From positions 1 through 64,000 of the forward strand of contig NZ_JABWGX010000009.1 in the NCBI RefSeq assembly GCF_021730435.1: DNA of 64,000 bases, written 5' to 3'. A model generated the notes under the pieces. It did no database searches. It was not told where the DNA came from and saw only the letters and a program-made list of their open reading frames with translations. The position numbers were made by a program, and so were the translations under genes. The stretch comes from Xanthobacter agilis (lineage in GTDB: Bacteria > Pseudomonadota > Alphaproteobacteria > Rhizobiales > Xanthobacteraceae). Below are positions 1 to 14,127 of the stretch, piece after piece; positions within the stretch are counted from its first letter, which is position 1; each line of letters opens with the position of its first letter.

Positions 1-99
1 ATAATCTGTTCTTCCGTGAACCTTGATCGTTTCATTCGTCCGTCCCTTTCATCGGGCGGACTCTAGCTATTTCTGGAGGAGTTTCAGGGGGTCACGTCA
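1..99 (-). mobile_element. IS3-family element, terminal part with orfA start
   Basis: A minus-strand ATG at 35-33 opens MKRSRFTEEQII and runs off the window. This is the usual first stretch of OrfA, the helix-turn-helix subunit of IS3-family transposases. Upstream of it (positions 99 to 81 on the minus strand) is TGACGTGACCCCCTGAAAC, which looks like a TG-starting terminal inverted repeat, so the element boundary is probably near 99. Whether the element is intact outside the window cannot be judged. Confidence 0.7.
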
Positions 100-513
100 A
101 AAGGCTTAGTTTACCACAGCGACCGAGGCGTCCAATAGGTCTCGATCCGCTACACCGAACGCCTCGCCGAGGCCGGCGTGCTTCCCTCGATCGGCGGTGT
201 CGGAGATTCCTACGACACCGCACTCGCGGAGACGATCAACGGCCTCTACAAAGCCGGCGCGGTTCAGTTCCGGCGGCTGCGCCAGGCTGGCGTGTTCGAG
301 CTGTTCTTCGAAACCCTGGCATCCCTGAGCCGAACGGCATATCTGGCCCAGATGTTCGATTCCACCGTGGTGCGCGCCTATGTCTCCGCCGCCGGGGCAA
401 AAGGGGGGCAGCAGGGCCAGGTCCGCAGAGCCGTCATCAGGACACTCTCCTCGGCATCACCTGCACGAACATGCCCCCACTATCGAACGACAATCTGGAG
501 ACCGCCAATCTGA
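100..513 (+). pseudogene. Chimeric transposase remnant: IS3 OrfB fragment fused to IS5-family fragment
   Basis: The open frame reads GLVYHSDRGVQ, then an in-frame TAG at 136-138 where the IS3 family normally has Tyr, then VSIRYTERLAEAG and VGDSYDTALAETINGLYK. These are the catalytic-core signatures of an IS3 OrfB integrase. At about position 268 it passes in frame into RQAGVFELFFETLASLSRTA and MFDSTVVRAYVSAAGAKGG, the N-terminal region of IS5-family (IS427-like) transposases. The IS5 part loses similarity after about 420. It starts next to the IS3 terminus at 99, so at least three mobile fragments are stacked here. It is not functional. Confidence 0.8.
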
Positions 514-697
514 TCCTGCCAAAGTAGTGCTAGGGTCGGTTGGACCGATGTGCGGCGGTCACGGCACTATGGTTCGCTGGGGCATTCCGTTATATGAAGA
601 GATTCTATAGTGATTTTAGAAATCTCCGGACGAGCAGGTCCGCCTCTCGCGGGGAGGCGGAGGCCGGCACGGTGACAAACGGTGAAAAATCCCCCCA

Positions 698-2473
698 ATG
701 ACGCGAGAGAACCGCTCCCAGGCCACGATCCGCATCAGTCGCACCACATTCGACTGGGGCGAGCGGCGTCTTGTGGTCGAAGGTATTGCCGTTGCGCCGG
801 TGGCGATCTGCGAGGTGATCGTGAGCGTGCCCCAGCCCGAGCTGGACGTCGCCTATGTGGCACAGCGCAACGAGGAAAGCGTGGTCGATCTCGGCGACGG
901 ACGAAATTCTTGGGCGTGGCGCATCGAGGCGATTCTTGCGGGGCAGGCATTACCGCAGAGCGTCCGGGTCAGTTTTCAAGGGGAAAGCGGCCAAGGTGAG
1001 CACCTAGAAAGGGTGTCGACCGCTGCCGACGTGGTGGAGGTGACGTCGCCACGTGTTTTCCTGAGTTCGGCGGTGTTCGACCGCGAGACGCGCAATGTTC
1101 GCGTTCTCGGCTGGGCGGTGGGCGTCTCAGGCAATGATAAATTGTCGCTATTCCTCAACGGGCAGCCCTTCGGACAACCGAGATGGCGCGAGCGGCGGGA
1201 CGTAGAGCAACGTTTCCCTTGGCTCGCGGGTACCCGCCCGGGCTTCGAGGCGCAGGAGATGGTTTCTGGTAGCGCCGACGCCGATGGGGTGGTCGAAGCG
1301 CTCCTGGTGCGCAACAACAAATGGATCGGTTCCGCACGCTTGCCACTGAAGGCCGTTGGAGCCACGGTCGCCAACGCGGCGAAGCTCCCGCGCCACCCGT
1401 GGCTTGGTGCCGTTTTGAGCCGAGATGCGTCCGGAGCGGATATCAAAGGCCTCGCCAAGCGCATGACCCCAAGAGGCCGCCGTCGCCTGCTGGCCAGCCG
1501 GGCCTTTCAGGCACTCTGGTGCGCACCGTCCAATCCGGCGGCCATCATGAGACGGGCCATTGTGGAAACGATGATCGACAATGACGAAATCGGCGGCCTC
1601 CTTGATATCCGCTTGTCCACCGGCCACATTGTAGCTGCCAATCCGAACGAAGATCAGGTGATCGCCCGGCGCTTCCTGCTTGATGGAGGCTATGAGAATG
1701 GGGTGATCGACATTTTGCGCCGGCTGCTGCCCCGAGGCGGCACGGCCCTGGACGTCGGGTCGTGTTATGGCCACATCGCCATGGCCATGGCGCAGGCGGT
1801 CGGGCGCGATGGCCAGGTGGTGGCGGTAGAGGGCAATCCGGCGATGTCGGCACGCCTAGCGGGAACCTTTGGTCGCAACTGCATCGATAACATTGAAATC
1901 ATCCCGGCGGCGGTCGGTGCGCAATCGGGTGAAGGCTTCTTTTACCCGTTAACGCAAAACAATGTCGGCGGAAGTCGCGTGATTTCAGCGGAAGGGGCTG
2001 CTAACACCGATATCATTGATGAACAATTAAAAAAGATCACTGTGGTGTCTCTGGATCACGCCGAACGTGGATCTTCGGTGCCGTTCGTGAGCGACTGCGG
2101 ACATCTGTCGACACCCATCCGTGTTCCGATGACCACCCTAGACGAGATCATCGGGCGCACAGAAAAGGTGCCAGATGTTATGAAGATGGACATCGAGGGG
2201 TCGGAGCTTCTCGCGCTCCGTGGAGCAAAGAAGCTCATTTCCGGAGCCTTTGGAAAGCAGCCGGCCATCATCGTCGAGTATTCGCTGCTGCTTCCCATGC
2301 TGGGAGGAACGCGAGAAGACCTTTACATCATGCTTGAAGGCAACGGCTATCGGGCTCATCGGATGAGTCTGGGCAAGGGTCGCGGCGGCGAACTGACTGA
2401 ATTGAAATCGATGGATGAGGCCCCCGAACACGACGACCTGGTTTTCCTGCCGCTGTCGCTGCGGACGGAGTGA
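698..2473 (+). CDS. FkbM-family methyltransferase with N-terminal accessory beta domains
   Basis: 591 residues. The C-terminal third is an FkbM-type SAM-dependent methyltransferase: the SAM motif TALDVGSCYGHIAMAMAQA lies near residue 346 and MKMDIEGSELLALRGAKKLI near 494, which is the family signature. FkbM enzymes commonly O-methylate sugars or other small molecules. The N-terminal ~200 residues are not methyltransferase; they form one or two beta-sandwich-like units. The second (about 118-190, FLSSAVFDRETRNVRVLGWA then RRDVEQRFPW) resembles a segment of the giant glycosyltransferase at 4825-10002, suggesting a common glycan pathway. The ribosome site before ATG 698 is weak and a GC hairpin (640-660) precedes it. 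IS remnants lie on both sides and the codon usage is less GC-rich than the surroundings, consistent with acquired DNA. Confidence 0.85.
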   Translation: MTRENRSQATIRISRTTFDWGERRLVVEGIAVAPVAICEVIVSVPQPELDVAYVAQRNEESVVDLGDGRNSWAWRIEAILAGQALPQSVRVSFQGESGQGEHLERVSTAADVVEVTSPRVFLSSAVFDRETRNVRVLGWAVGVSGNDKLSLFLNGQPFGQPRWRERRDVEQRFPWLAGTRPGFEAQEMVSGSADADGVVEALLVRNNKWIGSARLPLKAVGATVANAAKLPRHPWLGAVLSRDASGADIKGLAKRMTPRGRRRLLASRAFQALWCAPSNPAAIMRRAIVETMIDNDEIGGLLDIRLSTGHIVAANPNEDQVIARRFLLDGGYENGVIDILRRLLPRGGTALDVGSCYGHIAMAMAQAVGRDGQVVAVEGNPAMSARLAGTFGRNCIDNIEIIPAAVGAQSGEGFFYPLTQNNVGGSRVISAEGAANTDIIDEQLKKITVVSLDHAERGSSVPFVSDCGHLSTPIRVPMTTLDEIIGRTEKVPDVMKMDIEGSELLALRGAKKLISGAFGKQPAIIVEYSLLLPMLGGTREDLYIMLEGNGYRAHRMSLGKGRGGELTELKSMDEAPEHDDLVFLPLSLRTE

Positions 2474-2624
2474 GCAAGCCCAGAGGGAATAGCGCTTGCT
2501 CGTGGCCATATGGTCTTCATGCATCGCCGCCAATGTTTCGCGCACTCCTGCAGGAAAGTGGCACCGGTGCGCGGTGAGCTTGGAGCGGGATGACGTATTC
2601 CCGTTCACAGCACTGTGCCACTGC

Positions 2625-2830
2625 TCAGGCGAGGATGGCGTTGGAGGTGAACGCGCTGCCGTTGTCGCTGACGATCATCTTTGGCCAGTTGCGCTCGACC
2701 ATCAGCAGATCCAACTCGCGTGCGACACGCGCGCGGGACAGCGATGTGTCCGCAGCCAGGGTGAGGCAATCCCGAGTGCGGTCATCCACCACTGTGGCTG
2801 TCAATGGGTACGGAAACCTGACCTCATATC
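2625..2830 (-). pseudogene. IS3-family transposase (OrfB) fragment
   Basis: The minus strand encodes VVDDRTRDCLTLAADTSLSR, ARVARELDLLMVERNWPKMI and VSDNGSAFTSNAILA, part of the DDE integrase core of IS3-family OrfB (the second catalytic Asp lies in VSDNG). Both ends of the gene are missing. The frame closes at 2625, and upstream residues (before about 2830) do not resemble the family. It is a dead remnant in the IS cluster between the FkbM gene and the glycosyltransferase operon. Confidence 0.75.
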
Positions 2831-2858
2831 GGCGCCGAATATTGAGCCCGGTCCGGAG

Positions 2859-2913
2859 CATTGACCCCACTGCCGCGGAGCGTTGGTGTGGCGCAGCGGC
2901 AGTGGGGTCAATG
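2859..2913. repeat. Perfect 18-bp inverted repeat
   Basis: CATTGACCCCACTGCCGC at 2859-2876 is repeated exactly in inverted orientation at 2896-2913, with a 19-nt spacer. It lies between the IS3 fragment and the IstB remnant, so the arms may be terminal repeats of an IS21-type element or its excision scar. As RNA it would fold into a strong hairpin. Confidence 0.7.
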
Positions 2914-2923
2914 GTGGCGGCGG

Positions 2924-3291
2924 TCAGGCCCGGTTCTTGAAACGCGCGCTCTCGTTTCCGGTCTCGACGACGTCGCAGTGGTGGGTGAGGCGATCGAGGA
3001 GCGCCGTGGTCATCTTGGTGGCACTGAAGACGCTCCGCCACTCGCCGAAGGCAAGGTTGGTGGTGACGATGACCGAGGTCTGTTCGGAGAGCCGGCTGAT
3101 GAGGTGGAACAGAAGCTGGCCGCCGGACGGGGCGAAGGGCAGGTAGCCGAGCTCGTCGAGGACGATGAAGCCCTTGCGGGAGAGATAATCGGCCAATTAT
3201 TGCGTTCCTTGCGGGCCCTGGCGGCCGGAACGGGCCTCGGCCTCCAGCTTGTTGACGAGGTCGACCAGGTTGAAGAAGCGCCCCCCGACGG
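2924..3291 (-). pseudogene. IS21-family IstB helper ATPase remnant
   Basis: The frame reads [18 protein letters not shown], a TAA stop at 3199-3197, then [40 protein letters not shown] and [20 protein letters not shown]. This is the Walker B/sensor half of IstB, the ATP-binding transposition helper of IS21. The N-terminal half with the Walker A motif is absent. The 5' edge abuts a G-run (around 3285-3300) directly joined to an IS5 fragment on the other strand. The truncation and nonsense codon make it a pseudogene. Confidence 0.85.
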
Positions 3292-3297
3292 GGGGGG

Positions 3298-3558
3298 GGC
3301 TACAATGCCCATCAGGTGAAGGACGCGGTCGCTGCCGTGTCGGCCCTGCGCATGGGAATCGTGAAGCGGACCGACCACGTGTCCGGCTTTGTCGTTCTGT
3401 CGCGCCGCTGGGTGGTCGAGCGTACCTTCTCGTGGTTTGGCCGCAACCGCCGGCTCGCCAAGGACTGGGAGAACCTCGCCGAGACGCTGCACGCTTTCGT
3501 CGCCCTCGCCCGCGATCCAGCTCAGCATCAGGCGCCCCGCCTGAAGGCCGGCCTTTGA
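3298..3558 (+). pseudogene. IS5-family transposase C-terminal remnant
   Basis: Encodes [14 protein letters not shown], then [20 protein letters not shown] and [20 protein letters not shown] to a stop at 3556-3558. This is the C-terminal DDE region (with the WVVERTF signature) of IS5/IS427-type transposases. The N-terminal half is missing here; an N-terminal half of the same general type lies at about 268-420, so the two fragments bracket the FkbM gene in the same orientation. The 3' end lies one nucleotide from the stop codon of the glycosyltransferase gene on the other strand. Confidence 0.85.
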
Positions 3559-3559
3559 G

Positions 3560-4828
3560 TCAGGCTCTCACAGTGCAAGCAGGCGAAGGCATTTCGGTGA
3601 GCAGTGACCGGGCGAAGTCCGATAGACTATATTTGAAGAGGCCGGGGTCACTGAATTCAGGCGAGATCACATAAAATTTCAGCAAGCGGGCAATATGCTC
3701 TAGAAGGCGGCGCTGATTGGGCTTGCGGCTGCCGTCGGCGATCGATTTCTTGACCGCGGATTCCAGCTGCGCGTTGAACAGGGCTTCTCGAACAAGTCCT
3801 GATCCGCTCAATTGCATCTTGCCCATGATGACCGTGGGGCGCTCATGCATCACGGACATATAAGCGCTTTGCGACACAATGGTTGTTAAGACGTTAATCA
3901 GGGGTAGAAGGTCAAGGAGGTCAATCCTCTTGTCGATGAGCGTCAAATACTCCTCATGTTCGGCGACCGCGGTGATTGCGTGCGTTGTGGAGGGGTGGGG
4001 CTTGTAAAGGATATACCAATTGTTTCGCCGTGCCACCCGCAGGAGCGCCTGAAGGCCTTGTTCGGTGCTGATGAAGTCGGCGGCATGAAGGGGAGTGCGC
4101 GTGGTGGTGTAGGGTTGCAGGCCGGTCTTGTAATCATTGATTCCGGCATAGAGGATCTTGGGTCGTGGATCGGCGGCCAGTATTTGGCTCAAATCCGATT
4201 CGGAGACGGCGGTCATGTCGGTCTTGCGGCTCAGGCGATTGCGACGCGCGTGCTCCAGATAGGCTTGGGCATGGGCGATGTCGGTGCCGTCGATGGGAAG
4301 GGCCGCGAACCTGCTCGGCTCGCGTGCGATCCAGCTTTCGGCCATCTGGCCACCGAACTCGAAACACCATGAGCCGGGGAGAACTCCATTTTCTCCGTAG
4401 ATCACGGGTACATTGTTTCGGCGGCACCAAGCCGCGATGATGTAGTGGTATGCATTAAACTGATGCCACAGGATCACGAGATCCGGCTCAAAACGACTGA
4501 GCTCCTCCTCAATGTAGCATTTGTAAAGATAGGCGGAGGCGTAGCAATCGGCCGCCCCCCGTTTGGGGACATCGTAGTTCAGCGTCTGGCCCGCGATCCG
4601 AAGAAGCTGATTCTTTGGATCGGCATTCTGTCCGAGCGTAAGGCCTTGTTTTGACGTCGATTGCCGCAGAAAATTTGGAAGTGGCAAAGTGAGTGCGACG
4701 CTCTCTATGGGGTGGCGGCTCGTGCGACACACGGCGGCGCCGTTGTCCTTGAGGTGCCTCAGAAGCGCTTCGATGCGTTGGAGCCGAGAGGGCTCCGCGC
4801 CGTAATCACTGTAGAAGATGCGTTTCAT
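3560..4828 (-). CDS. Capsule-type polysaccharide biosynthesis protein (putative GT-B glycosyltransferase)
   Basis: 422 residues. An N-terminal half with DLVILWHQFNAYHYIIAAWC and VPVIYGENGVLPGSWCFEFG is followed by a C-terminal Rossmann-like half with ILYKPHPS and TTIVSQSAYMSVMHERPTVI. This layout resembles KpsS/KpsC-type capsule proteins and other GT-B enzymes that act on surface polysaccharides. It is the second gene of a minus-strand operon, its ATG overlapping the end of the giant glycosyltransferase gene by four bases (4825-4828). The last few codons lie at the end of an IS5 fragment, so the native C-terminus was probably cut off and replaced by a few IS-derived residues. The donor and acceptor are unknown. 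Confidence 0.65.
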   Translation of the reverse strand: MKRIFYSDYGAEPSRLQRIEALLRHLKDNGAAVCRTSRHPIESVALTLPLPNFLRQSTSKQGLTLGQNADPKNQLLRIAGQTLNYDVPKRGAADCYASAYLYKCYIEEELSRFEPDLVILWHQFNAYHYIIAAWCRRNNVPVIYGENGVLPGSWCFEFGGQMAESWIAREPSRFAALPIDGTDIAHAQAYLEHARRNRLSRKTDMTAVSESDLSQILAADPRPKILYAGINDYKTGLQPYTTTRTPLHAADFISTEQGLQALLRVARRNNWYILYKPHPSTTHAITAVAEHEEYLTLIDKRIDLLDLLPLINVLTTIVSQSAYMSVMHERPTVIMGKMQLSGSGLVREALFNAQLESAVKKSIADGSRKPNQRRLLEHIARLLKFYVISPEFSDPGLFKYSLSDFARSLLTEMPSPACTVRA

Positions 4829-7800
4829 CGGGCAGCCTCCGGACGCGCGCGCATCGCCGAAAGGGCATCGTCGACCACTTGGACATAGGTTTGATAGCGC
4901 TCGGAAATATTCTTGAGCTCGGTTCCGCTCAAGGCGCTGTAGGAGAGATGTGGCTCATGGCAGCCATCCAGATAAACCTGTCGCGCGAGTTCGAATTTTT
5001 TAGCCGAAAAGCCCTTGACCGCCCGCGTTCCGGGATCGTCCTTGAAGATCTCCTCCAGCCGCTGGGCGAAGGCGTCGAGGGTGACGGTCTCGCGCACTTT
5101 CGGGTGGTCGGTGCGGACGCGGGATTCCACTGGCGTCTGCAAGACCTTTGCGATCAGAGCCCGCATGGCGTCAACGTCGCCCCAGGGTGCGAAATACGCG
5201 TGGTCGAGGTTGAACTCCTGCAACACCGGGAGGTCATAGGCAATGCAGGGCGTTCCCATGTAGCCGGCTTCGACGGGTGGATAGCCGAAGCCCTCGAACA
5301 ACGACGGAAAGATCATCAGTTCGGAGCGTGCAATTTCCTCGAACTTGCGCCGATCTGAGATCATGTACAGGAGCTTAAGGCTGAGCCCCATGTCGTCGAG
5401 GCGCGCGCGGAATCTGGCCAGAGTATCCATATCCGGCAAGTCGGCCGTTCCGGCGATCAGGGCGAGGGTATATCCCGCCATCTGCGGTGTCACGAGGTCG
5501 AAGATGGCGTCGATGTTTTTGTGTGCGCTCGCGTTGCCAAAGCGGCTGATGAGGATGATCTGCTTTTCACGCGGGTGGTGCTGTTGCCGCACGAGGTCGG
5601 CAATGGGACTATTGATGGAGGGTGGCGCGGCGGCAAAGACCGGCTCGTGGAATAAGGTCTTGTAGAAGCTCCGCGCGAACGGGATCGCGGTCTCGGCGGA
5701 AGACAGGATGACATCGGAGAAGCAGGCGGAGGCGAACCAATGATCGGCGTCCGCGAGCTTTTTCGGGTCCGGGGAGAGGCCATTGAACCAGTTCGGGCTT
5801 TCGAAATTCACGAAGGCGGTTCGCGCACCGCACCGCTGGGCGATCTCGTAGGTCTGTATGTTAAGGCGAGTCAGCCGCGCGCCGTCTGGCACCACCACGA
5901 CGTAATCGAAATGACCTTCGGGAGCATCGATCCAATCGTTGATGCAATAGCGGACCTTGCCGTGGTAGGGGCTGTACCCGAGATCTCCCGACCAAGGAGG
6001 CATGTTGTTGGTCCAGACCACAACGTCGTCGCAGAAGCGGGCGAGCGCTTCCGCCAACATGGTGACGTGATAGCGTCCGCCGGAGAAATGCCGGCGCGTG
6101 GTCTGGCTGACCACCAGGGCGCGGCGGCCGGTGCGCGCGGGGGACGTCGCTGCGGGCGTCTTGGCCGCCTGGAGCTTGCGGGGGGAGCCATTGCCGCCCG
6201 GTGCGAAGCAATGGGCGGGCGCCGGGCGAGCATGGACCGCCGGTGTATAGGAATCCGCGAGGGCGTAGAAGGACTTGCCCACGACCTCTCCAGCCAGGAA
6301 GGCGTCCTCGACGGAGGCGATGAAGCGATCCTCGGTGGACTGTGCGCGATTGACTACGAAGGTTGGATGGGCGAGGTGCCCGGAATCGACAAGGTCGTGG
6401 TATTGCGCGTCCTTGGAATGGCCCCAGAAGTCCTCGTTGGCGTCAGGGTCCGGCGCCCGGCCGTCGAGGCCGAGCATGTAGACCGTGTCGCTGAAGGTCG
6501 CCGCGATCGGAAGCATGTGGATGTTCAGCGTGCTGTCGAAGCGGGGCAGCGCCCAGATGTTTTCGAGGTTTGTGTTGAGCCCCGTGAGGCGCTGTTCGCA
6601 CATGATGACCCGGTCGCGGATTTCCGGGTGCTTTTGGATGAGGAAAAAGCCGACCTTGGCCGATGTGAAAAAATGAATGTCACGCGTCGTAATGGCGCGA
6701 ATAAGATCAGCACGGAAGGTTTCGGCATAGGTGGAAACGCCGAAGTGACTGACTGCATCGCCGGCGCAGATGATGGCGGGTTGGATGTGATCCAGCAACG
6801 CATCGTTGGCGACAATGGAGTTGCAGGCTACGGCCAGGCAGTCACTAAAATCGAAGGCGAAGGCATCGTCGATTGAAGGACCTGTTCCAAAAACGGCGCT
6901 GCAGGTCTTTCCGGCGGCCCTGTTCCGTTGCAGAAGGCGACGGAAACGTTCCTGGCTTTCGTTCAGGATTTCGGTCCGTTGTTGTTCCGGAGCCAGCAGC
7001 CAGGGGATGTTGCAGTAATGACCATATTCAACCGCGCTTGGATCATCCGTGGCGACGGGGACAATATGGGCGCGGGGAAGGATGCGCCTGATGTAATTCA
7101 GTAGTCCATGTGGAAGGGGGCGCCAAACCAGAATGACTTCGGCGCGCACCAGCGCGCCGAAGTAAGACGCTCCAGACGACATGAGCTCTAGTGTTGTATC
7201 ATTGGTGCTTTTGCGCCCGAAATACTCAGGCGGGGGAGGGATGGTGAGGTCCCGTGAATTGATCTCGTCGCCGAGGGCAAATGTGACGCAGGTGATCGGA
7301 GAGCCGGTGCCAGTAAGATACCAGCTCGCACGGTGATAGTGGTTCGAAAGGGCTTCCAGTGTGTCGAACGCGGGAAAATAGCAGACTTCCCCCTCCGTCG
7401 CCGCGGCCCCAGACGAGGCGTCCACATGCTGTTTCAGGGCGACGATGTCGGCGAGTTGCAGGCTGCCGGGTAGCGGCGCCTCGTTGCGCTGCACCGACTG
7501 GCGCATCGCGGCGAGCCGGCGCGGCGAATCCTGGCCGGGTGTGACGTCTTTGGAGGCTTGAAGGCGGCCGAAATGGACGGTGAGGATTTCCCTGTCGTGC
7601 AGGCCCGCGAGCGGAATGTTGATTGACCATTGGCGCTTGCCGTCGGTGTCGGTGTCTTCGAGTAAGCTGTAGACGGGTTTGATTTCCGCGCCGGAAGAGG
7701 TTGTGACGCGAAATTCGGGTGCCTCCGGCTCTTCACTGCTGATCGTGCCCTCGATCGAGCAGAGGTTGCGCAGCATGCTGTAGGTGCATTTCGCAATTTT

Positions 7801-10002
7801 GAGTCTGTCGCTTGACATCGGGACGTCAGCGGCCTCGGCGATTGTGATCGGCCAGTCGTGAATGCGGAGCTGCCGGCCCGAGACATAGGTCACGCGGGCG
7901 CTGGCGCGCTCGGGCAATTGGTCGAGCTTGAATTGAACCCGCCAGCCGGACTTGACCTGATTGTATTGCGGGTATTTGTCGAAGATGTCGCGGCGGTCTT
8001 CGGTCCGAGGGTCGATGGGGGCAACGATGGTGGTGCCCTCGACTTCCAGGAACAAATCGTGGGAGGGCTCGGAGGTCAGGCACCAGCCGTTGACCTCGAG
8101 AATGCCCTTGGCGGGGCTGTAGGCGGCGCGGGAAATGCGCAGCTCGGTGTTCAGTTGCGGACGATAGCTCTGAGGCGCATTGGCGGCGGCTTCGGCGCCC
8201 AGGGCCAACACGAGACCGAAGCCTGCGCCACCGCCCGGCCCCTCTTGTTCCTGGGCTACGGGCAGGGGCAGCAGCCCGCCCAGGGCGGCAACGGGCGCGC
8301 CGGCTCGAAATAGGTAGGCGGTGATGCCGTTGGCCTGCGCTTTTGCCGCGTCGATCTCGACGATGGCACATCCCCGTTTGTCCGGCGTCGCCTCGATCCA
8401 GGTCGAACCGTCGGCGCTCACCGCGATCTGATCCGCCGCTTTCGTCGGGTCCAACTCCAGCTCAATGGAAGCGTGGTTCTGCTTTGTACCCAATAGTTTG
8501 GCGGTGACCCAGGCGGGCATTGCCGTGTCGGCACCGGTGATCCGCAGGCGGAGCGTGTCGATCGGCGCGCTACTGGAGTCCGCCAGGGTGAGAGACACAT
8601 TCCCTTCGCTCGTGTCCGGCAGCAGCACCGTCACCCGGGACACGATCCAAGGGCCGAGGGCGTCCAGCGTCCGAACGTGCGGCGCAAGGAGGGGAGCGTC
8701 GGCGCCCTCCAGGGCGATGGCCTTGATTGGCCGTGGCGTGGAGCAGATGAAGGAGACGAGGAGGTCGCCACCTGCTGTTTTCGCCACCGAGCGGAGCAGG
8801 GCGGGGATGGGCGCCCCTTGGAGCACGCGGCCGTCCGGGATTTCGCCCTCGAACGGGCCCCATTGGGTCTGGGGGAAGGCGCGTGGGAACGTCGCCAGCC
8901 CGTCGGAGGCCTGGCGCAGGAGGTCGATCAGACGCGCGCCGACTGTGTCCACCTGAACCAGCGCACGCGCTACCTCGTGCAGCTCCTGACTGCGGGCCGG
9001 CTGAGCAAGAGCAGAGGCTAGGGCGGTATTTAAGTCCGTGACATTGCCGCGCTTGGCGAAATGTGCGATGCCGCCCACGGTCTCCTTCAGGACCGGAAGA
9101 TCATAGCAGGCGCATTCCGTGCCCACATAAGCGGCTTCCGCCGGGAGGTCGCCAAAGCCTTGGAAATAGCTCGGGAACAGCAGTGCCTGGGCCGCCGACA
9201 GCAGGGACAGCCGCTCGGCGTCGGTGAGTGCGGTGTGCAGCGTCACGGTGGCACCGAAGCGCAGCCGGAGCAGGGCCGCGAAGGTTTCGTCTGCCGGTTC
9301 TGCCGAGACCACGTGGAGGGCGCGCCCTGCGAACAGATGCGGATCCATGTGCAAGAGATCCTGCCCGTCCTGTCCGGTGCCGGAGCCGTTGCAGAACGCG
9401 ATGACAGATCCATCCTTGGCGACTTCGCGCGCCGCGTCGGCCGCGAGTGAATTGATGGCAGGCGGGCACACTGCAAAGCGCGGCTCGGCGCCCCCCACAC
9501 CGTGATAGAAGGTTTTGGCATAGCGGTTGGATTCGTCCGTGCTCGACAGAACGAGCCCGCCCGTGGCCACCGCGCGCCGCCAATAGTCCCATACGCGCAG
9601 GTCCAGGGGCTCCGGCGAGAATACGTTGAACCAGTTGCCGGAGGCGAAGTTGATGAGCACCATCCGCGCGTTCGCCCTGGCTGCGAATTCGAACGCGGCT
9701 TCGTAAAAATCGGGCAGGAAGATGCGGACCGGCGCCAGCACGACGAAGTCAAAGGAGGTCGACGGCACGCCGCTGCGGAAATCAGCGGACACAAGGTAGT
9801 CCACCCGTCCCGGAGCAAGGGGATCTAGCCCTCGGCTGAACAGCGGCCGTTCATCGGTGATGACGGTCACATCCGCACCGGCGCGGGCGAGCGCATAGGC
9901 CATTATCAGACCATGATACCTGCTTCCGGCGTAAAACTCATGATCCTTGGCTGCAAAGATTGCAACGCGCAGACGCGACGTTTGGGAGTTCATGGCATCC
10001 AC
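4825..10002 (-). CDS. Giant multidomain glycosyltransferase: GT-B module, beta domains, DUF115, second GT-B module
   Basis: 1725 residues. Residues about 1-365 form a GT4-like module (YAGSRYHGLIMAYALARAG, then LLFPSYFQGFGDLPAEAAYV). About 370-830 is a non-catalytic stretch with beta-sandwich-like repeats (one near 620, LRISRAAYSPAKGILEVNGW). About 1015-1260 is a DUF115/MAF-type domain with AVFGTGPSIDD and IICAGDAVSHFG. About 1288-1650 is a second GT4 module (SGGRYHVTMLAEALARF, LLYMISDRRKFEEIARSELM, MIFPSLFEGFGYPPVEAGYM). The two GT modules are clearly related; the first has Q where the second has the first Glu of the GT4 E-x7-E motif and may be impaired. DUF115 proteins are known from flagellin glycosylation, while GT4 enzymes transfer sugars from nucleotide donors. 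No signal peptide or membrane segment is visible, so it is probably cytoplasmic. It overlaps the next gene by four bases. Confidence 0.85.
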   Translation of the reverse strand: MDAMNSQTSRLRVAIFAAKDHEFYAGSRYHGLIMAYALARAGADVTVITDERPLFSRGLDPLAPGRVDYLVSADFRSGVPSTSFDFVVLAPVRIFLPDFYEAAFEFAARANARMVLINFASGNWFNVFSPEPLDLRVWDYWRRAVATGGLVLSSTDESNRYAKTFYHGVGGAEPRFAVCPPAINSLAADAAREVAKDGSVIAFCNGSGTGQDGQDLLHMDPHLFAGRALHVVSAEPADETFAALLRLRFGATVTLHTALTDAERLSLLSAAQALLFPSYFQGFGDLPAEAAYVGTECACYDLPVLKETVGGIAHFAKRGNVTDLNTALASALAQPARSQELHEVARALVQVDTVGARLIDLLRQASDGLATFPRAFPQTQWGPFEGEIPDGRVLQGAPIPALLRSVAKTAGGDLLVSFICSTPRPIKAIALEGADAPLLAPHVRTLDALGPWIVSRVTVLLPDTSEGNVSLTLADSSSAPIDTLRLRITGADTAMPAWVTAKLLGTKQNHASIELELDPTKAADQIAVSADGSTWIEATPDKRGCAIVEIDAAKAQANGITAYLFRAGAPVAALGGLLPLPVAQEQEGPGGGAGFGLVLALGAEAAANAPQSYRPQLNTELRISRAAYSPAKGILEVNGWCLTSEPSHDLFLEVEGTTIVAPIDPRTEDRRDIFDKYPQYNQVKSGWRVQFKLDQLPERASARVTYVSGRQLRIHDWPITIAEAADVPMSSDRLKIAKCTYSMLRNLCSIEGTISSEEPEAPEFRVTTSSGAEIKPVYSLLEDTDTDGKRQWSINIPLAGLHDREILTVHFGRLQASKDVTPGQDSPRRLAAMRQSVQRNEAPLPGSLQLADIVALKQHVDASSGAAATEGEVCYFPAFDTLEALSNHYHRASWYLTGTGSPITCVTFALGDEINSRDLTIPPPPEYFGRKSTNDTTLELMSSGASYFGALVRAEVILVWRPLPHGLLNYIRRILPRAHIVPVATDDPSAVEYGHYCNIPWLLAPEQQRTEILNESQERFRRLLQRNRAAGKTCSAVFGTGPSIDDAFAFDFSDCLAVACNSIVANDALLDHIQPAIICAGDAVSHFGVSTYAETFRADLIRAITTRDIHFFTSAKVGFFLIQKHPEIRDRVIMCEQRLTGLNTNLENIWALPRFDSTLNIHMLPIAATFSDTVYMLGLDGRAPDPDANEDFWGHSKDAQYHDLVDSGHLAHPTFVVNRAQSTEDRFIASVEDAFLAGEVVGKSFYALADSYTPAVHARPAPAHCFAPGGNGSPRKLQAAKTPAATSPARTGRRALVVSQTTRRHFSGGRYHVTMLAEALARFCDDVVVWTNNMPPWSGDLGYSPYHGKVRYCINDWIDAPEGHFDYVVVVPDGARLTRLNIQTYEIAQRCGARTAFVNFESPNWFNGLSPDPKKLADADHWFASACFSDVILSSAETAIPFARSFYKTLFHEPVFAAAPPSINSPIADLVRQQHHPREKQIILISRFGNASAHKNIDAIFDLVTPQMAGYTLALIAGTADLPDMDTLARFRARLDDMGLSLKLLYMISDRRKFEEIARSELMIFPSLFEGFGYPPVEAGYMGTPCIAYDLPVLQEFNLDHAYFAPWGDVDAMRALIAKVLQTPVESRVRTDHPKVRETVTLDAFAQRLEEIFKDDPGTRAVKGFSAKKFELARQVYLDGCHEPHLSYSALSGTELKNISERYQTYVQVVDDALSAMRARPEAAR

Positions 10003-10625
10003 TTATCTAATTCTGCAAAGAGCTTGCGGGGCGGAGCGTCTTTGGGTGTTGCGGCCTAAGGATGGGGTGAGCCGAATGGCTTCGTGTGATCGCTGCTGGA
10101 CGGCGTTTTGCGCCAAGTTGACCTGAGGCTAAGAATCAACGAGGAGCGTCGGCTGGCTGGCTCTATCGCCGGCCGTTCTCTGGCTAGGCGCAGGGCGACC
10201 AGGACGCGGCTCCCTCGGGGCGCATATTTAAGGACCACGGCGGCCCTCCAGGCAGGACATCAAAAGCCATCCCCTCCATGGAGGCGTCAGCGCCGGATGG
10301 CGGAAACTAGCCGACCTGCAGGGCGCTAGACAAGAACCCGCTGGCCGGAGTTCCCGGCATTTGTGGGTGTGTTTGTCGTTTGGGATGTCGGGAAGGGCAC
10401 CGGTGGGTGCGCGCTACCGCACCGGTGGCGCGGGGGATTTGGAAAACCTAGCCCGGGACGCAACGAAAAGGGGCGCGATCGGGCCCCTTTCGCTGGGGCA
10501 GGAGGGGCGGGCGCGGTTGCGCGCGCATCCGCGGTGCTCCGATGTATCCGCATGGCGGCCGGCCGTGGCATATGGGGACTGGGGCAGGTGTTGCCCAATT
10601 GTTCCAGTCGGAGGGGACCAAGAAA
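10003..10625. other. Intergenic region, no supported gene
   Basis: About 620 nt between the divergent glycosyltransferase operon and the deformylase-like gene. No frame shows a recognisable protein. A hairpin with arms CGAAAAGGGGC (10464-10474) and GCCCCTTTCG (10483-10492) could end a transcript or sit in the 5' leader of the downstream gene. Promoters of both divergent genes should lie here but no clear consensus was identified. Confidence 0.5.
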
Positions 10626-11135
10626 ATGACGGTGCGTCCCATCGTGCAATTTCCCGATCCGCGCCTGCGGGCCGTGGCCGAGCCTGTCATCCGGTTCGAT
10701 GACAACCTCCGGCTCCTCGCCGCTGACCTGCTCGAGACCTTGCGGGCGGCGCCCGGCATCGGCATCACCGCCCCGCACATTGGTGTCGCAAAGCGGCTGG
10801 TGGTGCTGGAGCTGTCCGCGGATGACGGGGTGCGGACCTACGTCAATCCTCGGGTCATCTGGGTTTCCCCTGAGGTTTTAAAATACCGCGAAGGCAGTGT
10901 CTCCATGCCCGGCGTGGCGGAGGAGGTCGAGCGCGCGGCGCGGGTTCGCGTCTCGTTCCAGGATCTGGACGGAGCCGAGCGGGCCGAGGAGGCCGATGGG
11001 TTGCTCGCCATTTGCCTCCAACATGAGATCGATCAGCTTGATGGGATCTTCTGGCTTCAGCGCTTGTCGCGCTTGAAGCGGGAGCGGGCGATTCGCAGAA
11101 GCGCGAAGCAGCGGTCGGTCGTGTCGGGCACCTGA
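10626..11135 (+). CDS. Peptide deformylase-like protein lacking canonical metal ligands
   Basis: 169 residues from ATG 10626, chosen because CGGAGGGG lies just upstream and because MTVRPIVQFPDPRLRAVAEP is the normal deformylase N-terminus; an earlier in-frame ATG at 10542 has no such support. The fold markers are present: motif 1 GIGITAPHIG (usually GxGxAAxQ), motif 2 EGSVSMPG (usually EGCLS) and motif 3 HEIDQLDG (usually HEFDHLxG). The metal-binding Cys of motif 2 and the second His of motif 3 are replaced, and the Gln of motif 1 is His. True deformylases remove N-formyl groups from nascent proteins using these ligands, so this paralogue is probably not a normal deformylase. Confidence 0.8.
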   Translation: MTVRPIVQFPDPRLRAVAEPVIRFDDNLRLLAADLLETLRAAPGIGITAPHIGVAKRLVVLELSADDGVRTYVNPRVIWVSPEVLKYREGSVSMPGVAEEVERAARVRVSFQDLDGAERAEEADGLLAICLQHEIDQLDGIFWLQRLSRLKRERAIRRSAKQRSVVSGT

Positions 11136-11749
11136 CCGGGTTGTCATCGCGGCCGAGCCGGATCAGCGCGCGGGGCCTTGCTCCGGGCTTGTCGGAGGGC
11201 CGCGGGCCGGACCGGCGCGATCGCGGCCCGCGACGGCGCCCGGCGGACGTGTGCGGTGTGGCGCAAATGCACGACGTGAGTTTATTTCCTCCCGTTGCGC
11301 AATCTCGATGGGCCTCTGCGCAATCCTGGTAGCGGCCCACCCACGTCCTCAGCGAAACCCGAAGCCAGAACGCGAACTCCGCAGGCGATTCCGCGGGGTG
11401 ATGGCGCGTCGGGCGGCATTCGGGGGGCGGCACCGGAACATGGACCGCCGGACTGCAGACCAATTGGATCAACGCCTCGGGAACCATCTCCAAGGCTTGG
11501 AACAGCGGGTTCGCGGTGTTCCAGGGCACGGCCGGCACGGTCACGGTGGACAACAGCGCGGGGCAGGTCTCCACCATCGGCATGCAGTTCGTCGACAGCG
11601 GCTATGTGGTGACGGGCGGCGACATTCTGCTGAGCGGCCTGTCGCCGGCTCCCATCCGGGTGGGCGACGGCACAGTCGCCGGCGCGGCGACGGTCGCCAC
11701 CATCGCCAGTGCCTTCACGGGGACCACCGGTATCGAGAAGAGCGACTAC

Positions 11750-11866
11750 GGCACGCTGATCCTGACGGGTACGAACACCTACACCGGGGACACCACCATT
11801 TCCGGCGGCACGTTGCAGCTCGGCAATGGCACCACCACGGGTTCGATCGTGGGCGACGTGGTGGAC
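11750..11866 (+). repeat. Autotransporter direct repeat, copy 1
   Basis: This ~115-bp segment, beginning GGCACGCTGATCCTGACGGG, recurs at 12233-12349 with only about 8-10 differences. The offset is 483 bp, exactly 161 codons, so recombination between copies would keep the frame. Confidence 0.75.
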
Positions 11867-12232
11867 AACGGCACCCTCTCGTTCAACCGGGCGAACAGCT
11901 ACACCTTCTCCGGCGACATCTCGGGCAGCGGGGCGCTGGTCCAGGCGGGCAGCGGCACGCTGACCTTGACCGGGGCGAATACCTTCTCCGGCGGGCTGAG
12001 CGTCACCTCGGGCACGGTGCGGGTGACGTCGGCCGGGGCACTCGGCACCGGGGGCCTGTCGCTGCGCGGGCCGAGCGCCTTGCAGGCGAGCGGCACCTTC
12101 AGCTACGGCGGCGCGGTGGCGCTGGCGCAGGTGAACGGGGCCGGCGGGGGCACCTTCACGGTGGATTCCGGGGCGGCGCTGAGCCTGTCGGGCGTGGTGT
12201 AGGGCAACGGCACCCTGACTAAGTCCGGCACC

Positions 12233-12349
12233 GGCACGCTGATCCTGACGGGTACGAACACCTACACCGGGGGCACCACCATTTCCTCCGGCACGTTGCA
12301 GCTCGGCAATGGCGGCACCACGGGCTCGATCGTGGGCGACGTGGTGAAC
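12233..12349 (+). repeat. Autotransporter direct repeat, copy 2
   Basis: Second copy of the repeat at 11750-11866, in the same frame. The premature TAG at 12200 lies between the two copies, so an exchange between them would delete the stop codon. Confidence 0.75.
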
Positions 12350-14127
12350 AATGCGACGTTGGTGTTCAACCGGTCGGACACCTACGACTTCACCGGTTCC
12401 ATCAGCGGCACCGGTCTCGTGACCTTCACCGGTGACGGCAAGGTCAACTTCTCGTCGCCCTATGAAGGGCCGGTGGCGGTCGATCAGGCTCAGGTCGCCT
12501 TGGAGAAGGGCACGGTGTCGTCATCACCATTCACCGTCAATGACGGGGGGCGCCTCGGCGGCACCGCCACCATCGGCGGGCTGACGGTGAATGAGGGCGG
12601 CATCGCCGCGCCTGGGTATTCTCCGGGAACCTTCACGGTGAAGGGCGCCGTCGCCTTCAATGCCGGGGCGGTCTATCAGGTGGACGTGACGCCGGAGGGT
12701 GCTCACGATCTCATCACCGCCACCGGCCCCGTCACCATCTCCAGGACGGCGACGGTCGAGGTGCAGGCGCAGCCGGGGCGCTATCCCGGATCGAGCGCGA
12801 TGACCATCCTCTCGACGACGGGGACCTTGACCGGCGCCTTCGGGGGCGTGACCTCCGACTATGCCTTCCTTGACCCGACGCTCACCTATGACGCGCAGAA
12901 TGTTTATCTGTCGCTTCTCTACAGTGGCGTGGACTTCGTGACCTATGCCCGGACCTCGAACGAGGCCGGCGTCGCCGTGGCGGCGCAGGCCCTGGGCGCG
13001 GGGAGCTCGATCTACGACACCATTCTCGGCTTGCCGGAAGGAGCGGTGGCCTCGGCGTTCAACGCCCTTTCGGGCGAGGTCTACGCCTCCGTGGACACGG
13101 TGCTCCAGCAGGAGTCCATTTATGTCCGCGAGGCGGTCGGGGCGCGCTTGCGGCAGGCCGCTGCGGGGCCCGACGCCCTGGCGCGGGCGGCGCAGGGGAG
13201 CGGCCCCGCCACCGCCCGCCTGAGCCAGGACCTCGACGTGACGTTGTGGGCCCATGGCTACGGCGGCTGGGGCAAGAGCTTCGGCGACGGGAACGCGGCG
13301 AGCATTGCCAACAGCCTCGGCGGTTTCCTCATCGGCGCGGATGCGGCGATCGGGGCCAATGCGTGGGCCGGCGTGTTCGGCGGGTTCAGTCAGTCCAGCA
13401 TCGATGTCAACGCGCGGTCGTCGAGTGCCACCAGCGACAATTACGACGTGGGCTTCTATGTCGGCGGGCAGTTCGACGCTGTGGCGCTGCGGGGCGGCTT
13501 CGCCTACGGCTGGCATGATGTGTCGGTCAGCCGTTCCGTCGCCTTCTCCGGCTTCAACGAGACGGCGAATGGTGGCTACACCCTGGGCACTACGCAGCTG
13601 TTCGGCGAGGTGGGCTACGACCTGTCGCTGGGCGGCTACGCCTTCGAGCCGTTCGCGGGCCTGGCTTATGTGAATGTTGGCGGAGCGTCCTTCTCCGAAG
13701 GGTTCAAGGCCGCGGCGCTGTCGGTGGACATGGCGTCCATGGACACGCTCTACAGCACGCTGGGTGTCCGCGCCGCCGCCGCGGTCGAGCTGTTCGGACG
13801 CACGCTGACGCCGCGCATGACGCTGGGTTGGCAGCATGCCTTCGGGGACATCACGTCTTCAGCGGCCATGCGCTTCCTGGGGGGCGACACGCCGTTCCAG
13901 GTGACGGGCGCGCCGGTCGCGGTCGATGCGCTGCTTCTTGATGCCGGCGTCAGCTACGGCTTGTCCGATACCGCGACGCTGGGGGTGGTCTACACCGGCC
14001 AGTTCGCGCCCTCGGCCTCGCAGAACGCCTTCACCGCCCAGTTCTCGCTGAGGTTCTGATTTGCTGAAGGCTCGGTCGGGTGTGATCGAGCCTTCCGGAC
14101 GCCCTCTGACAAGGACCATGTGAAAAG

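Follow-up and report, generated by a model that had tools for sequence, protein, structure and literature searches.

The window, a 64,000-nucleotide stretch of Xanthobacter agilis DNA (NZ_JABWGX010000009.1) whose position 1 is the contig end, contains at 4825-10002 an open reading frame for a protein of 1725 amino acids. According to the ORF list and its translation, this frame lies on the minus strand and begins with GTG, and the plus-strand reading of the same interval is interrupted by stops; the ORF described in an earlier sequence-only reading does exist, on the minus strand. Along nine consecutive blocks, none longer than 200 codons, the order of GC by codon position never changed, with GC3 at 70-80%. 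Given this constancy, no frame break is visible, and the interval reads as a single coding sequence. The end of the gene overlaps the start of a second one in the sequence ATGA. The features are the following:

8863..10002, minus strand: N-terminal GT4-like module, residues 1-380 (Pfam match below the cut-off, seven-module alignment, low-confidence AF2 model matching GT-B folds)
8176..8862, minus strand: linker and beta region, residues 381-609 (BLAST limits)
7513..8175, minus strand: beta-sandwich region, perhaps two Ig-like sandwiches, residues 610-830 (AF2 and Foldseek, fold class only)
6208..7410, minus strand: DUF115-like domain, residues 865-1265 (alignments A1 and A2, invariant residues, hhalign to the DUF115 profile)
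5023..6150, minus strand: C-terminal GT4 module, residues 1285-1660 (PF00534, PDB match)
3560..4828, minus strand: partner gene, 422 amino acids, Capsule_synth-like (PF05159, borderline at 20.1 bits for a cut-off of 20; ortholog in Tritonibacter)
698..2473, plus strand: neighboring FkbM methyltransferase, 591 amino acids (PF05050, 54.3 bits; membership in the locus uncertain)

The two GT4 modules share the aligned blocks GSRYH/GGRYH (at 26/1308), NWFN (123/1404), PP-x-INS, FPS-x-F-x-GFG (276/1565) and YDLPVL, which the sequence-only reading had pointed out and which stand at matching positions in both; their identity is 31.1% over 360 aligned positions. In the Pfam search suggested at that time, the C-terminal module exceeded the cut-off for Glycos_transf_1 (49.2 bits, cut-off 26.4) and the N-terminal one stayed under it (22.9 bits). 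The C-terminal module also matched a glycosyltransferase in the PDB (7qsg, E 3.8e-5), retains R1487, K1495 and both glutamates of the E-x7-E motif (E1570 and E1578), and is predicted to be an active retaining GT-B transferase. Despite its low Pfam score, the homology of the N-terminal module to GT4 is clear from its 44.8% identity to the N-terminal module of a 1601-amino acid protein of genome G692 (L059_N), which scores 49.2 bits against its 22.9.

When the N-terminal module was compared with the six others of a seven-module alignment, Q211 was found where all six have K, Q281 where all have E, G210 where all have H, and A120, at the position of the NFES glutamate, where all have E. N205 replaces an R that is in register in five of the six, the remaining one (L047 of G692) having A. 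Gln281 is the substitution of the first Glu of E-x7-E that had been recognized from the sequence, together with the retention of both glutamates in the C-terminal copy; the impairment proved to be wider, extending to the R, the K, the H and another Glu. E289, R28 and H30 are retained. The changed positions are, we assume, those of donor-phosphate binding and catalysis, as in PimA and WaaG. Because N205, Q211, Q281 and A120 replace R, K, E and E, the N-terminal module is probably a pseudo-glycosyltransferase, and the proposal that a DUF115-type domain is tied to an intact GT4 and an impaired one holds.

Two AF2 models were obtained, one of residues 1-620 from three rows and another of residues 600-1290 from two, with low pLDDT values (42.8 and 41.8, respectively), so that their fold matches indicate the fold class at most. 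The structure prediction suggested earlier was therefore poor for both parts, although the model of residues 1-620 still matched WaaG, PimA and other GT-B enzymes, at TM-scores of 0.4 or less. The proposed beta-sandwich repeats are weakly suggested by predicted strands (pLDDT ~60) and by Foldseek matches of this region to Ig-like sandwiches. With NCBIfam, the 1725-amino acid protein gave matches below the cut-off only (for example, MSMEG_0565, 57.8 of 259.85 bits), and so did the Tritonibacter GT2-DUF115 protein (WaaZ, 15.7 of 200 bits).

The resemblance between the two GT4 modules had been attributed to an internal duplication, which was not borne out. By BLAST, residues 11-488 match the N-terminus of the G692 protein (L059_1601) at 41%, the latter having the R, H and K as well as the two E. 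Residues 594-1718 correspond, at 59%, to a 1156-amino acid protein of Tritonibacter horizontis, the GT4 modules of this pair being 71.1% identical. Residues up to 488 are common to the G692 protein, and the fusion junction lies within 489-593. We built a first tree from seven subfamily modules and five outgroup GT4s out of 10 loci tried, and a second one, with an AU test, from eight modules and two of these outgroups. The N-terminal module was the sister of the G692 N-terminus (support 98/98) and the C-terminal module that of the Tritonibacter module (100/99). The AU test rejected a clade of the two window modules (p-AU 1e-43) and also a clade of these with the Tritonibacter module (p-AU 0.011), the grouping expected if an older duplication had preceded the split from Tritonibacter. 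On these groupings and p-AU values the internal duplication was rejected. Since the two modules pair with different foreign proteins, two old paralog lineages contributed to the protein; as judged from these comparisons it is a fusion of old GT4 paralogs, the N-terminal module being the part that was added. This GT4 subfamily was detected in 3 of 327 genomes of the order (E ≤ 1e-20), and since all the genome searches sampled species and scored a restricted set of candidates in each genome, rarity here and below is a lower-bound statement.

The GC content is 61.5% at 3560-10002, 61.6% at 1-3500 and 67.1% at 10300-64000. Thirteen genomes of the same genus, with three candidates at most scored in each, gave only partial GT4 matches (E 1.8e-8 or weaker). 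The low GC of 3560-10002 and these partial matches make it likely that the region of the 1725-amino acid gene was acquired horizontally. A tblastn search of 72,556 plasmid records with residues 865-1265 gave no match at E ≤ 1e-5; however, a conjugative S. fredii megaplasmid carries genes related to the GT4 and to the 422-amino acid partner, which counts against a simple reading that the genes are not on plasmids. A phage home for the DUF115-like domain was also considered and rejected, as none of the 32 stretches in a viral-contig pattern scan was confirmed.

The DUF115-like domain carries the motifs GTGPS (1039-1043), N1061, D1082, GLDG (1178-1181), H1195 and H1212-P1213. Across six strong rows, two of which are 86% alike, 43 residues are invariant, including the GTG of GTGPS, N1061, D1082, G1178, D1180, H1195 and H1212-P1213. 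Pfam did not detect PF01973 (DUF115/MptE-like) in the 1725-amino acid protein, and a HMMER search of 11 aligned relatives at E ≤ 10 likewise gave none, although its filters drop most matches above ~0.1. In contrast, when the core of the domain (six rows, five kept) was aligned by hhalign with an 11-row DUF115 profile, the two were linked with a probability of 94.2% and an E of 1.2e-7; seven other profiles from the same loci gave E values of 0.089-0.77. The DUF115 profile consisted of the three rows of alignment A3 and of 8 of 12 other loci; L065, L067 and L070 were dropped because they did not match the A3 model, L073 because its match was weak, and the degenerate N-termini of G534, G568, G625, G672 and G710 were left out. 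Reducing the core to its three closest rows weakened the link to E 0.0097 and a probability of 4.3, and the first comparison, of four against three rows, gave E 0.014 and 3.2. The DUF115/MAF-type assignment made from the sequence thus stands at the level of profiles, which support a relationship of the domain to DUF115, and is not reproduced by Pfam.

Against the PDB, the A3 profile gave 11 rows, nine of which were sialyltransferases (E 0.0012 at best), most of them presumably the GT42 enzymes Cst-I and Cst-II, and alignment A1 of the DUF115-like domain gave a single chance row (E 1.8). A mixed profile, A8, reached E 0.0028 with GT42, mainly through one short stretch (domain i-E 0.35). The A3 matches weakly link DUF115 to sialyltransferases. 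The DUF115-like domain itself may have a GT42/Maf-like fold; the AF2 model of this part has a pLDDT of 41.8.

Relatives of the DUF115-like domain were found in 10 of 397 sampled genomes of the order, the window's own included (five strong, five weak or degenerate), in 1 of 385 sampled genomes of the class (again its own; this sample partly overlaps the former), and in 1 of 321 sampled genomes of Tritonibacter's order, Tritonibacter itself. The domain recurs in the order; the full five-part arrangement, whose recurrence the sequence-only reading had suggested checking, was present in one genome only among those searched. Beyond the window's own genome, five loci carry the strong domain, in Tritonibacter, G104, G129, G683 and G692. 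It is fused to a GT4 in Tritonibacter and to a GT2 in G129 and G683, which belong to one genus (the GT2 of G129 was assigned through its 86% identity to that of G683); in G692 it stands alone, with a protein that contains a related GT4 under 20 bp away. In G104, a single protein (L034:9458-13852) joins it with a GT2, an FkbM methyltransferase and a sulfotransferase. The degenerate domains, which lack FWxHSK, form the N-termini of 1355-1506-amino acid proteins in five genomes of one genus (G625, G534, G710, G672 and G568; L048-L052). Elsewhere in the window's own genome, contig C45 encodes a 1609-amino acid protein (L033:8006-12832) with the order GT4, beta-like regions, GT4 and DUF115, the latter at 25.2 bits, below the Pfam cut-off of 34.6.

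The 1156-amino acid Tritonibacter protein (L032:7929-11399) resembles residues 594-1718, with a beta region, the DUF115-like domain and the GT4; it differs in that the N-terminal pseudo-GT4 and its beta region are absent. It is followed by a Capsule_synth-like gene whose product (T420) is the ortholog of the 422-amino acid partner, 55% identical and in the same position, the overlap of both genes being TGATG. A Capsule_synth-like relative of the partner is fused to a related GT4 in G641 and S. fredii: the 1361-amino acid protein of S. fredii SMH12 (L063) and the 1422-amino acid protein of G641 (L060) belong to the same rare GT4 subfamily and carry this module at their C-terminus, and BLAST detected no DUF115-like domain in either. 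A more distant relative of the partner, 30% identical, forms the C-terminal part of a 1083-amino acid protein on a plasmid of the Gram-positive Paenibacillus cellulosilyticus (L064:6805-10053).

A cytidylyltransferase and a 2-hydroxyacid dehydrogenase are present in the fetched locus at three of the five outside loci (Tritonibacter, G129 and G683); the Tritonibacter dehydrogenase was identified through its BLAST similarity to an S. fredii gene that Pfam assigns. The contig with the DUF115-like gene is, in G104 and in G692, not the one with the best cytidylyltransferase match. A cassette of this kind also exists in the window's genome, away from the 1725-amino acid gene, on contig C21 (L083, C21:24500-44000). 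Its ORFs at 7457-13796, two assigned by Pfam and the rest by BLAST, correspond to Glucosamine_iso, 2-hydroxyacid dehydrogenase, cytidylyltransferase, inositol-phosphatase-like, FAA_hydrolase, Gfo/Idh-like and SIS-like proteins. The cytidylyltransferase shares 62-66% identity with its counterparts in Tritonibacter, G641, S. fredii and G692, and the cassette, which is partly common to S. fredii SMH12, G641, G692 and Tritonibacter, looks like one for the synthesis of a CMP-activated acid sugar. Relatives of the cassette accompany the giant GT4 proteins of S. fredii SMH12, G641 and G692 (C32), and C21 also encodes a 920-amino acid protein related by BLAST to the 422-amino acid partner, without a Pfam match. 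The Paenibacillus gene mentioned above likewise lies near relatives of the Gfo/Idh, cytidylyltransferase and SIS genes.

KpsC is one multi-module polysaccharide transferase, and here too at least two GT modules are present, namely the two GT4-type modules, with the DUF115-like domain counted by profile only. Polypeptides with two or three GT modules are established in O-antigen assembly (PMC11231755); WbbB and WbdA, like KpsC, are similar to our protein in having several GT modules per polypeptide for surface glycan assembly, and these transferases differ in belonging to other GT families, those of WbbB being GT99, GT102 and GT103. No module is termed "inactive" or "degenerate" there. The impression that the layout was unrecognized is fair for its exact order but not for multi-module transferases as such (PMC11231755, in part). 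The combination of a pseudo-GT4, a live GT4 and a DUF115-like domain is rare, and the literature searched yielded no description of it; one study on DUF115 and a glycosyltransferase (PMC4000134) reportedly concerns a polysaccharide-related protein. In titles and abstract openings on pseudo-glycosyltransferases, no dead GT4 in polysaccharide assembly appeared, the enzymes being chiefly of the validamycin, acarbose and trehalose type. The nearest published parallel for the mechanism proposed below is the E. coli K15 capsule cluster, where a GT4 gene is found together with a Kdo transferase predicted to be Maf/CstII-like (ORF4; PMC7387560); there the two are separate genes, their functions are predictions, and the likeness is one of description.

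We propose, with about even confidence, that the protein is a cytoplasmic bifunctional glycosyltransferase of the capsule/EPS type that uses CMP-acid-sugar and NDP-sugar donors and carries a fused non-catalytic GT4. The DUF115-like domain, if built like Maf/Cst-II, would transfer an acidic sugar from a CMP donor, and the C-terminal GT4, a retaining enzyme, would add the following residue with an NDP-sugar as donor; by alternating on one chain end, both modules would produce a two-sugar repeat, and the Capsule_synth-like partner may act on the same chain. The N-terminal GT4 would be a non-catalytic part, and our guess is that it holds the chain or serves in complex assembly. The ORF, the order of its modules, the homologies, the lost residues, the tree and the pairing of the genes are observed; the location, the fold of the DUF115-like domain, the donors, the alternation and the role of the pseudo-module are all matters that we infer, the use of a CMP donor from genomic context. 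This explanation is preferred because the C-terminal GT4 is intact, the domain is linked to DUF115 by profile and is fused or adjacent to a second transferase, the A3 profile of DUF115 matches sialyltransferases, a cytidylyltransferase accompanies it at three of five loci, the C21 cassette exists, the Capsule_synth-like partner is conserved and the K15 cluster offers a parallel. Counting against it are the lack of a meaningful PDB match and of a Pfam PF01973 match for the DUF115-like domain, the loss of the link with three rows, the poor AF2 models, the location on another contig of the cassette and, in G104 and G692, of the best cytidylyltransferase match, and the borderline Capsule_synth call. 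If it is correct, the protein, in which a dead GT4 is joined to a live one and to a domain related to Maf, would offer a tractable model of chain holding by a polymerase. The DUF115-like branch, unseen by Pfam, may extend the Maf/GT42 group to capsule enzymes, and its domain is a testable candidate for acid-sugar transfer.

A less likely alternative is that the protein, rather than being a polymerase, attaches an acidic and a neutral sugar to a glycan already in place (LPS core, side chain or chain end). The presence of two transferase modules is no proof of processivity, and the chain terminator of Klebsiella O4 is a CMP-Kdo-dependent transferase (PMC11231755, in part); nevertheless, the conserved pairing or fusion with Capsule_synth-like proteins argues against this. 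We regard as unlikely a stronger version of the preferred reading, in which the protein would be a self-contained two-donor capsule polymerase fed by the cassette, perhaps with an unusual acid sugar, the dead GT4 being a chain clamp or ruler and the DUF115-like domain a new family of CMP-acid-sugar transferases. That the N-terminal GT4 is still active, and that a three-sugar unit is made, is improbable: E289, R28 and H30 are retained and there is neither a stop nor a frame break, but the K, the H, the first E-x7-E Glu and the NFES Glu that are constant in the other modules, as well as the R found in five of six, have all changed, and its Pfam score is less than half that of its sister.

Still less probable is a Maf-like protein glycosyltransferase acting on flagellin or on a nearby autotransporter. 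An autotransporter beta-domain protein (210.6 bits) is in fact encoded at 12296-14059, with a peptide deformylase gene upstream of it (10542-11135), and Maf proteins have PF01973 as their central domain, one Maf enzyme using CMP-Neu5Ac and CMP-Kdo (PMC11339370, in part). The central domain of the Maf flagellin glycosyltransferases is distantly related to the DUF115-like domain, with other flanking domains and another context, and PF01973 does not detect the window's domain; moreover, the Capsule_synth-like partner and the GT4 and GT2 fusions point to glycan assembly. That two genes were joined artificially, in assembly or sequencing, is very improbable: the five-part order was found in one genome only among those searched and the window starts at a contig end, but the frame is open throughout with even codon-position GC over the junction, in answer to this doubt of the sequence-only reading, and residues 594-1718 are one protein in Tritonibacter as well. 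A role in conflict or phage defence can practically be dismissed, since the 27.6 bits of PF20706 (GT4-conflict, cut-off 26) on the whole protein are weaker than those of general GT4 models and drop to 11.3 and 21.6, below the cut-off, for the modules alone, and PADLOC gave no match at E ≤ 0.1 for the protein or its 422-amino acid partner.

On the other side of the gene pair, the beta-like N-terminus of the FkbM protein weakly resembles residues 610-735 (hhalign E 0.0042, probability 8.1; BLAST E 0.15). Around the FkbM gene, within 1-3500, fragments resembling insertion-sequence transposases were recognized by eye in the translations.
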